Of a stretch of DNA of 33,275 bases, positions 16,064 to 21,164 are shown in pieces. Numbering within the stretch: the first letter of the stretch is position 1; each line of letters starts with the position of its first letter. The stretch covers positions 1 to 33,275 of the forward strand of contig JAHDRK010000062.1 of the NCBI GenBank assembly GCA_018433345.1, read 5' to 3'. Below the pieces are notes generated by a model. That model did no database searches. It was not told where the DNA came from and saw only the letters and a list, made by a program, of their open reading frames with translations. The translations under genes were made by a program, and so were the position numbers. This DNA comes from Syntrophobacterales bacterium (GTDB taxonomy: Bacteria; Desulfobacterota; Syntrophia; Syntrophales; UBA2210).

Positions 16064-16609
16064 TCAGGATACGAGTCCGCCGGCCTTGAGGCGTCGAACG
16101 ACGGGCGGCACCATGAGAGAACCCAAAGCCCCGAAGGCGACGTTCATAAAGGACGCCAGCACGGCGTGCTGTATGACCAGCACTGTGTCCATTCCGACGA
16201 TGATTTCCACCACCACCAGGACCACCACCCGGATTCCCGCCGCCAGTCCCCCCACAAGGACGCACAAGAGATAGCTTTCGGCGATCCTGGGGTGAAGCGT
16301 AAAGGCCAGGTCTATGACCAACCCCGAAATCATGTAGCGTACGATGACCAGCGGCCCGCCCCGTCCCATGCCGAGCATCAGGCTCAAAACGCCCGCCACG
16401 AGGCCGATGAAGGCGGCGGCGCCGTTTCTCTTCACCACCGCCCGTCCCAGAAGCATGAAGAACATGGTGAAGAACTGTGAATGGCCGGGAATGCTGAGCT
16501 TGAAGCGCAGGGCCGCCCTGGCTATGACGATGAATGTGGCGCAGAATCCCAACCAAAGCCCATCGCGCAGCGTAAACCGGTCGCCCAGTCCTTTTTTGGT
16601 CTTTTCCAT
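16064..16609 (-). CDS. ECF transporter S-component-like membrane protein
   Basis: The 181-aa protein is almost entirely hydrophobic after a short basic N-terminus, with about six membrane segments (near 17-34, 43-58, 62-82, 84-104, 112-135, 142-165). Size and topology match substrate-binding S components of energy-coupling factor importers. The glycine-rich LSLMLGMGRGGPLVIVRYMI loop is a strong feature. The T component and fused ATPase lie immediately upstream on the same strand. The substrate is unknown; homology to named vitamin S components (ThiT, BioY, RibU) was not recognised. The ATG overlaps a TGA (TGATG) of an out-of-frame ORF. Confidence 0.7.
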   Translation of the reverse strand: MEKTKKGLGDRFTLRDGLWLGFCATFIVIARAALRFKLSIPGHSQFFTMFFMLLGRAVVKRNGAAAFIGLVAGVLSLMLGMGRGGPLVIVRYMISGLVIDLAFTLHPRIAESYLLCVLVGGLAAGIRVVVLVVVEIIVGMDTVLVIQHAVLASFMNVAFGALGSLMVPPVVRRLKAGGLVS

Positions 16610-16768
16610 CAGAGTGCCTTTTTATTTTTTTCTTTTCGTAAATCGTCCGCCGGTGGCTGTTGACGGGTATCGGTTCCGGCACCGCCGGATTGCTCTTCAG
16701 GCGGGGGCGGATCCGGTCCTGCGAGTCGATCAGTGTGTCCGGCGGAAGATCCGGGCCGCCCAGGTCCG

Positions 16769-16930
16769 TTATCCGGCTCGTGGGAGATGGACAAACAACC
16801 GGTCCCCGGTGAGGCGGATGTCTTTTAGAAGACCGACGCGAACCAGTTCGTCGGCGAGCATCCGGGACAGGCGCCCCGTTCCTATGCTGGTTTTATTGCC
16901 CCTATCATCGATGGCGATGAACAGAGTCAT
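16769..16930 (-). CDS. Small ORF resembling the N-terminus of a TiaS-like protein, probably truncated
   Basis: The ATG at 16930 has GAGG about nine bases upstream and overlaps the T-component gene by 26 bases. The 53 codons begin MTLFIAIDDRGNKTSIGTGR, recalling the IDDTDN..GTGRLAR start of TiaS-like proteins (tRNA-Ile2 agmatinylcytidine synthetase family); this similarity is from memory and short. The reading ends at TAA near 16770. In another frame the next ~150 bases stay open with high third-position G/C (TDLGGPDLPPDTLIDSQD), and in the third frame an ORF ends TGATG on the S-component start. A frameshift and loss of the C-terminal part are likely. Confidence 0.4.
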   Translation of the reverse strand: MTLFIAIDDRGNKTSIGTGRLSRMLADELVRVGLLKDIRLTGDRLFVHLPRAG

Positions 16931-17612
16931 GTGAGTAGTCCTCTTGTGAATCTTTATGGTTGTTGTGGATCCCTTCAAAGCTTCGGGCCTGTGCCGAAAG
17001 CGCCGCCTCTTCGGCAGCAACGAATGCCCGGACAACAACCGGCACAAGCAGGCAGTGAAACAGATCGGGCCATGACCGCGGATCCACCAAGTCGCGGGGG
17101 CCGACGCGGGCGCCGCGCAACCGCTGGGCTTTTGCTATATCACTGAATTCGCGAATAAAATAGGGTATAAAACGAAAGCTGGTGAAAATAAAAAAGGCCG
17201 TTCGTCGGGACATGATTTTTTGAAGGCTGCCCATGATGTCCGTCGTGGGGGTCGTTCTCAGGAAAACCGCCGTGGGCATGAAGAAGAGGAGAATCTTGAC
17301 GCCTATGAACAATCCCGGAGCGGCGCCGTCGGCAAAACCGTAGCGGATCGAGTAGAGCGCGACGATAATGGCCATCTGGACAAGGAAGAGTCGAATGTCG
17401 CGCCACAGGTCCATGAGCTGAAGACGGGCCATGAAATAGTAGGCCAGGTTTAACGCCGCCAGGGGAATGAGCATCAACGGGTCTCCCACGGCCAGGACTG
17501 TGGTTGCGAGAACGGCGATGAGAAGGATTTTCCAGCCCGCCGACAGGCGGTGCACGGGCGAGTTCACAGCCTTATACTGGAAGGCCCTCCCTCGTTTAGA
17601 CCGTGCCTTCAT
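16905..17612 (-). CDS. ECF transporter T component (CbiQ/EcfT family)
   Basis: The 236-aa membrane protein starts at the ATG at 17612 with GGAGGG six bases upstream, overlapping the end of the ATPase gene by 17 bases. Hydrophobic segments lie near 26-65 and 70-125. The two cytoplasmic coupling motifs that contact the ATPases appear as IAKAQRLRGARVG and ALSAQARSFEG, matching the family's A-x-x-x-R-G pattern. EcfT transmits ATP hydrolysis to the S component. The C-terminal tail is hydrophilic and His-rich (NNHKDSQEDYSHDSVHRHR). Confidence 0.85.
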   Translation of the reverse strand: MKARSKRGRAFQYKAVNSPVHRLSAGWKILLIAVLATTVLAVGDPLMLIPLAALNLAYYFMARLQLMDLWRDIRLFLVQMAIIVALYSIRYGFADGAAPGLFIGVKILLFFMPTAVFLRTTPTTDIMGSLQKIMSRRTAFFIFTSFRFIPYFIREFSDIAKAQRLRGARVGPRDLVDPRSWPDLFHCLLVPVVVRAFVAAEEAALSAQARSFEGIHNNHKDSQEDYSHDSVHRHR

Positions 17613-18990
17613 GGAGCCGCCCTCCTTCCAGGATGTAAGTTCGGTCCGGCCAGGAGGGGTCCGGCAGGCTTCCGTGGGACGCGATGAGAACGGCCATTCC
17701 ATGGTCGTCCCGTAGGGCCGACAGGGCGTCGATTATCTTGAAGCGATGGGGAAAATCAAGCCCCGAGAAGGGCTCGTCTAGGAGAAGAACCGCCGGTCTC
17801 GTAGCAATTAAGGACGCCAGGGCAACCCGATGCTGTTCCCCGAAACTGATCGTCATCGGTGAACGCCCGGCAAGGTGATCGATGCCCAGGAGGGCAAGGC
17901 TGAACATGACGCGATCCTCGATTTCGTCTGCCTCGAGGCCCATGCGTTTCAGGGAAAAGGCCACCTCCTTGAACACGGTGATTTCAAAAAGCTGGCGAAG
18001 GGGATTCTGCGAGAGCAGGGCCGCCTTCCCGAGGAGCTTCGAAGGGTCGGGCGGCGACATTCCGGCGATGGCTACGGTCCCGCAGTTCGGTTTCAGGAGG
18101 CCCACGGCGCAGGCAAGAAGGGTGGATTTCCCCGCGCCGTTCAACCCGTAGAGAAAGACTGATTCTCCCGGATAGAGGGAAAAGGAAAGGTTATCGAACA
18201 GGGTACTGCTGCCGTGTCCCGCCATGTGAATGTTGTCAAGAGAAAGGACCGCTTCGGATTTTTCAGTCCTCCCGGAGCGGGACGGCGCCGGATTCCGCTG
18301 AAACGCGGTGCTCCAGGATTCGAAGTCGCTTTCCTCTAGGCGTCCCGATGTCATGACCAGGTACCGGTCCGCCAGGTCGCGGTAGGGGTGGAGGTCGTGA
18401 TCGGCGATAATCACGGTGTGTCCATTTTCTTTGATGCGGGCAAGGAGCGATCTCATCCGTTCCTTGCCCGCATCATCGAGCTGCGCCGACGGCTCGTCGA
18501 AGAGCAGCAACCCCGGCTTCATGGAAAGAACGGAGGCGATGGTGAGACGATGCTTTTCGCCTGCCGACAGCGCCTCCACGTTTCGCGATTCGAATCCGGT
18601 AAGCCCCGTCGCCTCCAGGACTTCGGCGACGATAGCGTTTCGATCTTCGGGAGGGATGCCCCTGTTGTCCGGTCCGAACAGGACCTCGTCGGTCACGGTG
18701 GTGCAAAGGATCTGGGTATCGGCGTTCTGGAACACCATGGCCGTATCCAGCTCAACCTCCAGTGTTCCCGTCGATCCGCCTTCTGAGGGATCGGCGGGTT
18801 CGGGAAGAAGTCCCTGGATTGCCCGGAGAAGCGTCGATTTGCCGCTTCCCGACGGACCGGTTACGCAGAGACACTGGCCCCTAAAAAGGGCCAGTGATAC
18901 GGAGTCGAGAGCGGCTGCCTTCGCACCGGGATAGCGGTAGAAAAAAGACTCCATTGTAAGAATCGGTTCCTGTGTTTCTTTGTCAGCCAC
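17596..18990 (-). CDS. Fused ECF ATPase (two ABC domains, EcfA-A' type)
   Basis: A GTG at 18990 preceded by AGGCGG gives 465 aa; an ATG at 18954 is possible. Domain 1 has Walker A GPSGSGKST, signature LSAGEKHRLTIA and Walker B GLLLFDEPSAQLD. Domain 2 has GLNGAGKST, signature ISFGEQHRVALASL and VLLLDEPFSGLD. Both halves look catalytically complete; the second signature is ISFGE rather than LSGGQ. A fused pair replaces the separate EcfA1/A2 subunits. The start lies 14 bases beyond the end of the TonB-receptor gene, and the ribosome site falls at that boundary, so the receptor and ATPase belong to one transcript. Confidence 0.92.
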   Translation of the reverse strand: MADKETQEPILTMESFFYRYPGAKAAALDSVSLALFRGQCLCVTGPSGSGKSTLLRAIQGLLPEPADPSEGGSTGTLEVELDTAMVFQNADTQILCTTVTDEVLFGPDNRGIPPEDRNAIVAEVLEATGLTGFESRNVEALSAGEKHRLTIASVLSMKPGLLLFDEPSAQLDDAGKERMRSLLARIKENGHTVIIADHDLHPYRDLADRYLVMTSGRLEESDFESWSTAFQRNPAPSRSGRTEKSEAVLSLDNIHMAGHGSSTLFDNLSFSLYPGESVFLYGLNGAGKSTLLACAVGLLKPNCGTVAIAGMSPPDPSKLLGKAALLSQNPLRQLFEITVFKEVAFSLKRMGLEADEIEDRVMFSLALLGIDHLAGRSPMTISFGEQHRVALASLIATRPAVLLLDEPFSGLDFPHRFKIIDALSALRDDHGMAVLIASHGSLPDPSWPDRTYILEGGRLHEGTV

Positions 18991-19462
18991 AAATACACGC
19001 CGCCTAAAATCTAAGTTCAAAGCCCCCGTACAGGTAGCGTCCCGGTCGGGGGAAAGCATAGCTCTCCTCGTAATCCTCGTCGAAAAGATTGTCCACTCCG
19101 ATATACAGGTCGAATCGATCCTTCAGCACCGACTGGTTCAGCTTTATGCCCACAGGGGTGTAATCGTTGAAGGACACTTTTTGGAGCGGCTCGTTCCGGG
19201 AATAATTATGCTGTCCCGCCACGTGAAGAAGATTCGCGTGGGCCGTCAATCCAAAATCGAAGTAATAGGTGGCTTCCAGGGTCAGTTTGCGTTTCGGTCG
19301 ATACTGGAGATCGTCTCTCTCCGAACCGGTGGACTTATCCTTCGTGTCCATGAGGGTGAATCCCGCCCGCAGTACCAGGTTTTCCAGGGCGCGGTTTTCG
19401 GCGACTACTTCGATGCCACTGAAGCGATATTGTTCATGGTTGAGGTTCAGTCGCTCGACTGT

Positions 19463-19507
19463 GCCGCCGCCGCCACCACCGCCACCACCGCCACCACCGC
19501 CACCACC
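19463..19507. repeat. Poly-glycine microsatellite within the receptor gene
   Basis: Read on the minus strand, the tract is four copies of the 9-mer GGTGGTGGC followed by three GGC codons, giving 15 consecutive glycines between VDLPT and TVERL. It lies in the barrel half, probably an extracellular loop. Changes in unit number keep the frame, so loop length rather than on/off expression would vary. Confidence 0.9.
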
Positions 19508-20239
19508 GGTGGGCAGGTCAACCCGTTCGATGTAATCTTTTACATCCATGTAGAATCCCGTGACCTCTACGGTGGTTTTGTAGGGAAGGGACTGAATCAC
19601 CCCGATCTCGTAATTGTCCGATCTTTCCGTGTTCAATTCCGGATTGCCGCTGTCCGTTTCGTACAGCTGGCTAATGGAGGGGAAGCGGATTTTTCGGGCA
19701 TAGGAACCGCGGAGACGGGTCGTTTCCGTCAAATCGTAGTAGGCGCCGACGAGCCAGCTTCCCTCGTCATCGGAACTTCCCCGCTCCTTGTCGAGCCAGT
19801 TATGGCTGTATCCCAGCACCAGGCCGAGCCTGTCAAGGGGTTCCATGGTATACTCTATGGCTGCCATATATACATCGTTGGTGTACTTGAAGAAGTCGTC
19901 CCGGCGCAAGTTCGGGTGATCGCGACGGTCGATGTAATGCTGATCCCAGGTGTCCTGGCGGACATTGAAGGCCAGAGACAGGGCTCCCGCACGCTCCATG
20001 TCGTAGGTTGCCTGGAAATTGAGACCCTTTACCATGCTTTTAGTGTTGTCGCTGTAACCTTTGGTTATGAGATTGTATTGATCATCATCGTAGCGGTTGT
20101 TTTCTTCTTTGAGCTCGTTGTAATAGGCCCATGTACGGAATTCGAAAGCCCGCGAGGGGTTGTACTGCAACGATACCTGTCCCGTGTATCCTTCCAGGTC
20201 TTCTGTTCGGTCATAATGAAGGCGCTGTGCAAAATCATC

Positions 20240-20242
20240 TCA
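20240..20242 (-). other. Premature in-frame TGA in the receptor gene
   Basis: The codon reads TGA after GAT (Asp) and before GAT GAT TTT. Single-base changes would restore CGA (Arg), GGA (Gly) or TGG (Trp). No SECIS-like hairpin was recognised just downstream. Confidence 0.8.
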
Positions 20243-21164
20243 ATCGATGGTGCTGGGAGGAGCTCCGAACTTGCCCTGCACGGTATGAAAAACGAACCCA
20301 ACCATCAGATCGTCCCGTGGAGTAAGCCCGAGGTTCGCGAAAAGGGTGTGGTTCTCCCGATCCGAGTTGACGCGCAATCCCTTTCCCTGTAGGGGAGTCG
20401 GGTCGAAATCGTCGGAAAGGCCGAAGCCGTCGCTGTCATAGGTCCTTCCGCTGACGAAGAAATCGACCTTGTCCTGCGCGCCCGACACACTGAACGTGCC
20501 CTGGTAGGTGTTCCGTTCTCCGATTTCGCCTCCTATCATGCCCCGAAGGCCTTCTTCGCCTTTCTTGGTGACGACATTAATAACCCCGCCAATGCCGCCC
20601 TCGCCGTAGAGAACGGAGTGGTTGCCGTAGGAAACCTTGATCTTGGCGATGTTCTCCACGCCGATCATGGAGGGATCAAACTGGCCGTCCTGGGTGGAAT
20701 TAAAGGGAACGCCGTCGAGCAGCAGGACCACGTGACGGGTCCGCATACCTCTCAAATCCACGCGGGGAGTGCCCCGGGCGGCGGTTCGCAGGTGCAGCCC
20801 CGGCATCAATTGCAGCGCCTCGGCAAGTGTCCGCGCGCCCCTGTTTCTGATTTCCTCCGCCGTTATTTCCCGTACGGCACCGATCGACTCAACGCCGTCC
20901 CGCTTGCCGGTGACGACCACTTCCCCCATTCTGAAGACGCCCTGCTGATCGTCGGGCGCCTGGGAAAAACCAACCCCGGGCAAGACAGTCCATGCAAGCA
21001 GCAGCGCGAGACATGAGATGGCTGGTTTGCTTTTCATTGTGCGTCGGCTCCTTTCTCTGTAGTGGTCATTGAATTTGGAGATATTGCCAAATGTCGCGGA
21101 TCGATCTTCGTACCCTCCGGTTATTGCCGGCACTGCTTCCTGTAGTTCTACGTCGATTAACACT

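Follow-up and report, generated by a model that had tools for sequence, protein, structure and literature searches.

The minus strand of a 33,275-nucleotide contig from a Syntrophobacterales bacterium (GCA_018433345.1, JAHDRK010000062.1; this whole stretch is hereinafter the window) carries an operon of a TonB receptor, a fused ECF ATPase, a T component and an S component. The genes probably encode a two-membrane importer for tungsten, which would be taken up either as tungstate or in chelated form; molybdate is a less likely substrate. The parts of the machine, the conservation of the operon, the ECF-S fold of the S protein, the homology of a fifth protein to TiaS and the metal-gene and riboswitch context were all established by computation.

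Table 1. Features of the operon, in positions of the window
Feature	Positions	Strand	Evidence
TonB-dependent receptor gene, one in-frame stop	19004..21037	-	Plug 1.4e-22, beta-barrel 8.4e-31
In-frame TGA in receptor	20240..20242	-	Sequence and alignment
Polyglycine tract, 15 residues, receptor loop	19463..19507	-	Sequence, alignment
Fused two-domain ECF ATPase (A-A'), GTG start	17596..18990	-	Two ABC_tran domains; cbiO subfamily
ECF T component, CbiQ family	16905..17612	-	Pfam CbiQ 8.5e-15; 57% identity to L014
TiaS-like gene, 5' remnant (IDDRGN for IDDTDN)	16769..16930	-	Sequence comparison
TiaS-like gene, 3' remnant, different frame	16620..16775	-	Matches C102 copy
S component, 181 aa, six transmembrane helices, ECF-S fold	16064..16609	-	Structure model, Foldseek, profile family

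The group I ECF set, namely an ATPase pair, a CbiQ-type T component and an S component, is complete in one operon and is kept in relatives. The two ABC_tran stretches of the ATPase are recognised by Pfam at 1.7e-47, and its assignment to the cbiO subfamily has an E-value of 5.5e-84. The reading frames of ATPase, T and S are intact. ECF T components carry two conserved Arg-Gly motifs; in the window T component the first, LRG, is present, while the second, near the C end, reads ARS versus ARG in the orthologous locus L014 and other copies. An earlier note, made from the letters alone, called the genes correctly but omitted the receptor TGA and the TiaS-like remnants in the gap between T and S. 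The Pfam domains and the conserved operon bear out its description of a TonB receptor joined to a full ECF importer. It placed the ATPase 14 bases behind the receptor; the adjacency stands, but the receptor TAG (19004-19006) and the ATPase GTG (18990) are separated by 13 bases.

The structure of the S component was modelled with AlphaFold from 32 sequences, giving six membrane helices with a mean pLDDT of 89 and a pTM of 0.85. The 11 best Foldseek matches in the PDB are all ECF S proteins, headed by 5edl (TM 0.66, E 2.2e-3), the structure of YkoE, a vitamin-type (thiamin) S protein. Upon iteration of the profile, two apparent groups of neighbourhood S proteins merge into one family of ~40 ORFs, with R35, G42, P86, D100, A123, G160 and G163 near-invariant. 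The window protein matches PF09819 (ABC_cobalt) weakly (1.5e-6, 28.9 bits against a cut-off of 25.2); its orthologue in L012 falls under the cut-off, and those in L014, L039 and L028 give no match. No NCBIfam family was found for the S protein, and its profile (32 rows) matches no PDB sequence. Given these results, reading the ligand from the S sequence alone was set aside. The protein has an ECF-S fold and joins no named substrate family, in agreement with the note's statement that it matches no vitamin family. The importer is without a known substrate as far as sequence families go, whereas genomic neighbourhoods point strongly to tungsten/molybdenum.

The gap between T and S (16610-16904) is not empty. 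Specifically, it holds the start and the end of a TiaS-like gene from which the middle, ~140 codons, is deleted and in which DTD is changed to DRG. In relatives this is a fifth gene, encoding a TiaS-like 'IDDTDN' protein, found with T and S. When the S protein was used as query against the host genome, a second, partial match appeared on contig C102. A segment there, at ~18032-19270 (L015:9033-10270), contains a complete TiaS-like frame between T and S fragments that show 74-75% DNA identity with the window operon. The host has two damaged, complementary copies, with ATPase, T and S intact in one and the TiaS-like gene in the other. The TiaS-like protein (~240 aa) keeps the DDTD motif of the TiaS ATP site and matches TiaS and methanogenesis marker protein 11 over its first ~153-157 residues. 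It is not a full-length TiaS with tRNA-binding domains (49.8 bits versus a cut-off of 600, with residues 1-153 alone matching), and its model, with a pLDDT of 92, superposes on TiaS across ~160 residues.

TonB-dependent receptors consist of a Plug and a 22-strand barrel in one open frame. Both domains are found in the window receptor, with the frame broken by the TGA and running on unchanged on both sides of it. The TGA sits in a variable loop, where the window reads ID*DDF and L014 reads ISSKKDDY in the alignment. PF00593 matches ~90 receptors across 59 class genomes; the window receptor is the sole entry listed with an internal stop, and its orthologues in L012, L013 and L014 have open frames. 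A recoded genome was considered as the cause and set aside, the other frames of the window operon being open under table 11.

Complete sets are found in relatives G008, G031 and G084, which have receptor, ATPase and T together with S and the TiaS-like gene in either order, all frames open; the receptor therefore belongs to the orthologous locus. Many named genomes also have orthologous operons with intact receptor, ECF and TiaS-like genes. Absence of the receptor from orthologous loci had been named as one finding that would speak against the note's proposal; the receptor adjoins the ECF genes at most of them. The S gene is sporadic, with four true matches in 155 genomes of the class including the host. 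L008, a weak match of the first S profile, was rejected as an ABC-2 type permease, and the weak matches L009 and L010 were set aside as presumably of the same kind.

The window copy is probably impaired by the receptor stop and the TiaS-like deletion. In view of these two lesions and of ARS for ARG in the T component, it may not work, and the earlier description of a self-contained uptake system does not fit a locus with an interrupted receptor and a deleted TiaS-like partner. The chance that the operon in this genome is a decaying relic without function, a reading compatible with tungsten import by the family, is a little short of even. It would explain the in-frame stop, the deletion with its change of DTD to DRG, and the altered T motif, and it fits the distribution of the S gene, which was found in only 3 of 60 relatives and not elsewhere in the host's own genus. 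Three points speak against it: the ATPase, T and S frames are open, C102 retains an intact TiaS-like gene, and the lone stop may have arisen very recently or through an error of assembly. In a dN/dS comparison with G008, synonymous sites are saturated in most genes and recent selection is not readable.

Using the conserved motifs of the TiaS-like protein, named genomes were scanned and 80 loci were obtained, from deltaproteobacteria, Geobacter, Syntrophomonas, Desulfotomaculum relatives, Bacillus, Bacteroidales, Poribacteria, Myxococcales and others. An unsupervised clustering of all surrounding ORFs followed. The recurring families are FecCD/BtuF-type ABC importers, ECF ATPases, T components, TonB receptors, a helix-turn-helix/PBP regulator and a series of metal proteins: TupA, TupB, a molybdenum-storage (MoSto) homologue, MoaA, MoeA and a protein with a ModE DNA-binding domain. 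Profile matches confirm TupA (8.9e-75 in L039, 2e-75 in L038), the ModE repressor domain (7.3e-26 in L020), MobB (1.1e-23 in L084), MoaA (1.5e-69 in L022), molybdenum storage protein (8.6e-55 in L031) and AOR (in L038). No vitamin, cobalt or nickel pathway recurs among the neighbours of the 80 loci. The TiaS-like partner thereby becomes a pointer to the ligand, through the tungsten/molybdenum genes that recur around it.

At least one metal marker or riboswitch lies within ~10 kb in 21 of 37 non-redundant loci bearing the S gene. For comparison, TupA is matched once in the 2.13 Mb of the host genome, so that tupA would fall in a random 20 kb about 1% of the time. The recurrent binding protein of the neighbourhoods is TupA, not ModA. 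In L048 the gene for a TupA-like binding protein is situated between receptor and ATPase and overlaps the receptor frame. The S protein therefore does not always replace a periplasmic binding protein, as had been proposed. The host itself carries tupABC and two AOR-family genes, which indicates that tungsten has a use there and that the ECF set would add a further way of entry.

Several other arrangements were seen around the TiaS-like loci. In L024, L029, L035, L036, L040 and others, the TiaS-like gene ends riboswitch-headed FecCD/BtuF-type operons that begin with a Big_5-domain protein; these operons probably encode another tungsten/molybdenum importer. In L025-L028, L032, L056-L058, L063 and L066, mostly Bacteroidetes/Bacteroidales MAGs, the TiaS-like gene and S occur with no ATPase or T nearby, often flanked upstream by a ModE-domain gene and downstream by genes for a lipoprotein-like protein and a TonB receptor. 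Two small proteins of ~65-90 aa with no Pfam match also recur, c10, which has four cysteines, with the TiaS-like gene and c14 with the molybdenum-storage homologue (e.g. L094:8808-9059, L021:4351-4608). In L060, L073 and L094, a membrane iron-sulfur oxidoreductase (HdrD/DsrK-like) directly follows the riboswitch and precedes c10 and the TiaS-like gene.

An Rfam scan at gathering thresholds of 32 of the TiaS-like loci repeatedly returned RF01055, the molybdenum/tungsten cofactor riboswitch. The other RNAs in these loci are just c-di-GMP riboswitches and 6S RNA; TPP, cobalamin and other vitamin riboswitches are absent from the 32 loci, as are thiamin genes, so that S has no thiamin context there. 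RF01055 is found at S loci L038, L039 and L094 and at ECF loci L021, L051 and L084, and is absent at the window, where no riboswitch was found at the receptor. In L038 (Geobacter MAG), one strand carries in order riboswitch, TiaS-like gene, c10, receptor, ATPase, T, S, riboswitch, TupA, TupB, ATPase and MoeA, and an AOR gene with its own riboswitch adjoins the operon upstream. In L039 (Poribacteria), two tandem riboswitches are followed by TupA, receptor, ATPase, T, TiaS-like gene and S, with 454 bases between TupA and receptor. In L094 (Pelotomaculum), the run led by a riboswitch includes the TiaS-like gene, S, two ATPases and T; no receptor was found there, as expected of a monoderm, which has no outer membrane. 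In L021, L051 and L084, two ATPase genes and T stand directly behind a tungsten-type riboswitch, with no recognisable S gene. A search of relatives for riboswitches or biosynthesis genes beside the operon had been proposed in the note, and it has turned up RF01055 and Moco/Tuco genes; the context of relatives thus points to tungsten/molybdenum, contrary to the note's view that context does not identify the ligand.

According to Regulski et al. (PMC2408646), members of RF01055 without stem P3 go with tungsten-cofactor organisms. Stem P3 is missing in all 19 RF01055 alignments examined, which favours tungsten over molybdenum. That the same machine imports molybdate, or both metals without discrimination, is unlikely but has points in its favour: ModE-type regulators stand beside S in Bacteroidales and in L019 and L020, molybdenum-storage homologues lie near the loci, and the MoaA, MoeA and MobB neighbours serve both metals. 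The ModE-like neighbours in Bacteroidales fit molybdenum equally well and so count against tungsten specifically. On the other side are the P3-lacking, tungsten-associated riboswitches, the recurrence of TupA rather than ModA, and the AOR gene adjoining the Geobacter operon.

A second alternative is that an organic compound of tungsten/molybdenum metabolism is imported, either a cofactor or a precursor, for example a pterin; this would account for the TonB receptor as well as for a kinase-like partner. Most ECF S proteins with a known function carry vitamins, the TiaS ATP-site motif is retained in the TiaS-like protein, and the riboswitch context is cofactor-sensing. We nevertheless regard this alternative as improbable, because the TiaS-like gene also stands beside tupABC and FecCD-type ABC importers, so that the shared theme is metal, and because a TupA-like binding protein is encoded inside one receptor-ECF operon (L048). 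A vitamin (thiamin-type, YkoE-like) or cobalt/nickel importer is highly improbable: the narrow passing of the PF09819 cut-off by the window S, the best fold match 5edl and the CbiQ family of T are set against close S orthologues that miss PF09819, an S profile with no match among PDB sequences, loci rich in RF01055 and devoid of vitamin riboswitches, and neighbourhoods in which no vitamin, cobalt or nickel gene recurs.

Returning to tungsten, some observations count against it. No riboswitch or metal marker lies near the window copy, L012-L014 or L018. Among 154 genomes of the host class, 45 have the TiaS-like gene and 41 have RF01055, and the overlap of 13 genomes shows no excess over the ~12 expected by chance. 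The ABC_cobalt match of the window S, although weak, and the vitamin-type best fold point elsewhere. Free tungstate is small and should need no TonB receptor, and we know of no ECF transporter of an oxyanion. The presence of the receptor suggests that the tungsten ligand is bound or very scarce.

We infer the ligand and the direction of transport from the neighbours, and the role of each protein would be as follows. The TonB receptor would carry the scarce metal over the outer membrane at the expense of TonB, the S protein would bind it at the inner membrane, and the T protein and fused ATPase would drive it into the cytoplasm. Imported tungsten would feed tungsten-cofactor enzymes, e.g. aldehyde:ferredoxin oxidoreductases. 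The system also includes the TiaS-like protein with its ATP site, whose target after import is probably the metal or its cofactor.

The receptors have an unusual feature. Glycine runs of 6-24 residues occur in 8 of 16 receptors from loci having S and T (window, L012, L013, L019, L020, L031, L039 and L092), versus none with more than four consecutive glycines in 30 control receptors of the class (Fisher p ~5e-5, relatedness uncorrected). One receptor loop hosts seven of the runs, and the window's 15-residue run is in another loop; it is the sole nine-GGN run in the host genome. In L079, which has no T, a receptor with 35 glycines stands beside a TupA-like gene. Our guess is that backbone NH groups of the polyglycine bind the oxyanion. 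A more elaborate scheme, in which an ECF family dedicated to tungstate is joined by TonB receptors with polyglycine loops, whose backbone NH groups would bind tungstate or polyoxotungstate, and by an undescribed tungsten-specific step of the TiaS-like protein, is tentative and on balance doubtful.

Tungsten is limiting for anaerobic enzymes of syntrophs and Geobacter, among them AOR and class II benzoyl-CoA reductase. The present analysis gives an orphan ECF S family from several phyla a testable substrate and places the unexplained TiaS-like family in tungsten/molybdenum biology. If the assignment is true, an oxyanion metal joins vitamins and Co/Ni among the substrates of ECF importers, and tungsten becomes a cargo of TonB-driven uptake. 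A literature search, covering mostly papers outside subscription, found no report linking tungstate, TonB and ECF; a study on Geotalea treats only CbiMNQO (PMC13119186). ECF importers and TonB receptors are known kinds; as far as the literature searched shows, neither the substrate class nor the S family nor the combination had been described before.

The group I ECF importers CbiMNQO, NikMNQO and YkoEDC resemble the window set in having an ATPase, a CbiQ-type T component and a six-helix S protein in one operon. The window-type set differs in its links with a TonB receptor, with tungsten genes and with a TiaS-like protein, and the window S lies outside the named families apart from its weak PF09819 match. 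The importers TupABC, WtpABC and ModABC share the genomic and riboswitch context of tungsten/molybdenum uptake; they are type I importers, whereas the window set has ECF architecture, a membrane S protein and its own TonB receptor. MolABC-like (FecCD/BtuF-type) importers have the TiaS-like partner and the RF01055 riboswitch class in common with the present family, but belong to another transporter superfamily and are absent from the window. The TonB receptors of metal complexes, BtuB, Cir and CntO, share Plug and barrel with the window receptor; its PDB matches are distant, with no close solved relative, and polyglycine tracts mark half of the receptors of its kind. Finally, TiaS (tRNA-Ile2 agmatidine synthetase) and methanogenesis marker 11 have in common with the TiaS-like protein the N-terminal ATP-site domain and DDTD, whereas the TiaS-like protein lacks the remainder of TiaS and is found in the context of transporters and metal genes.
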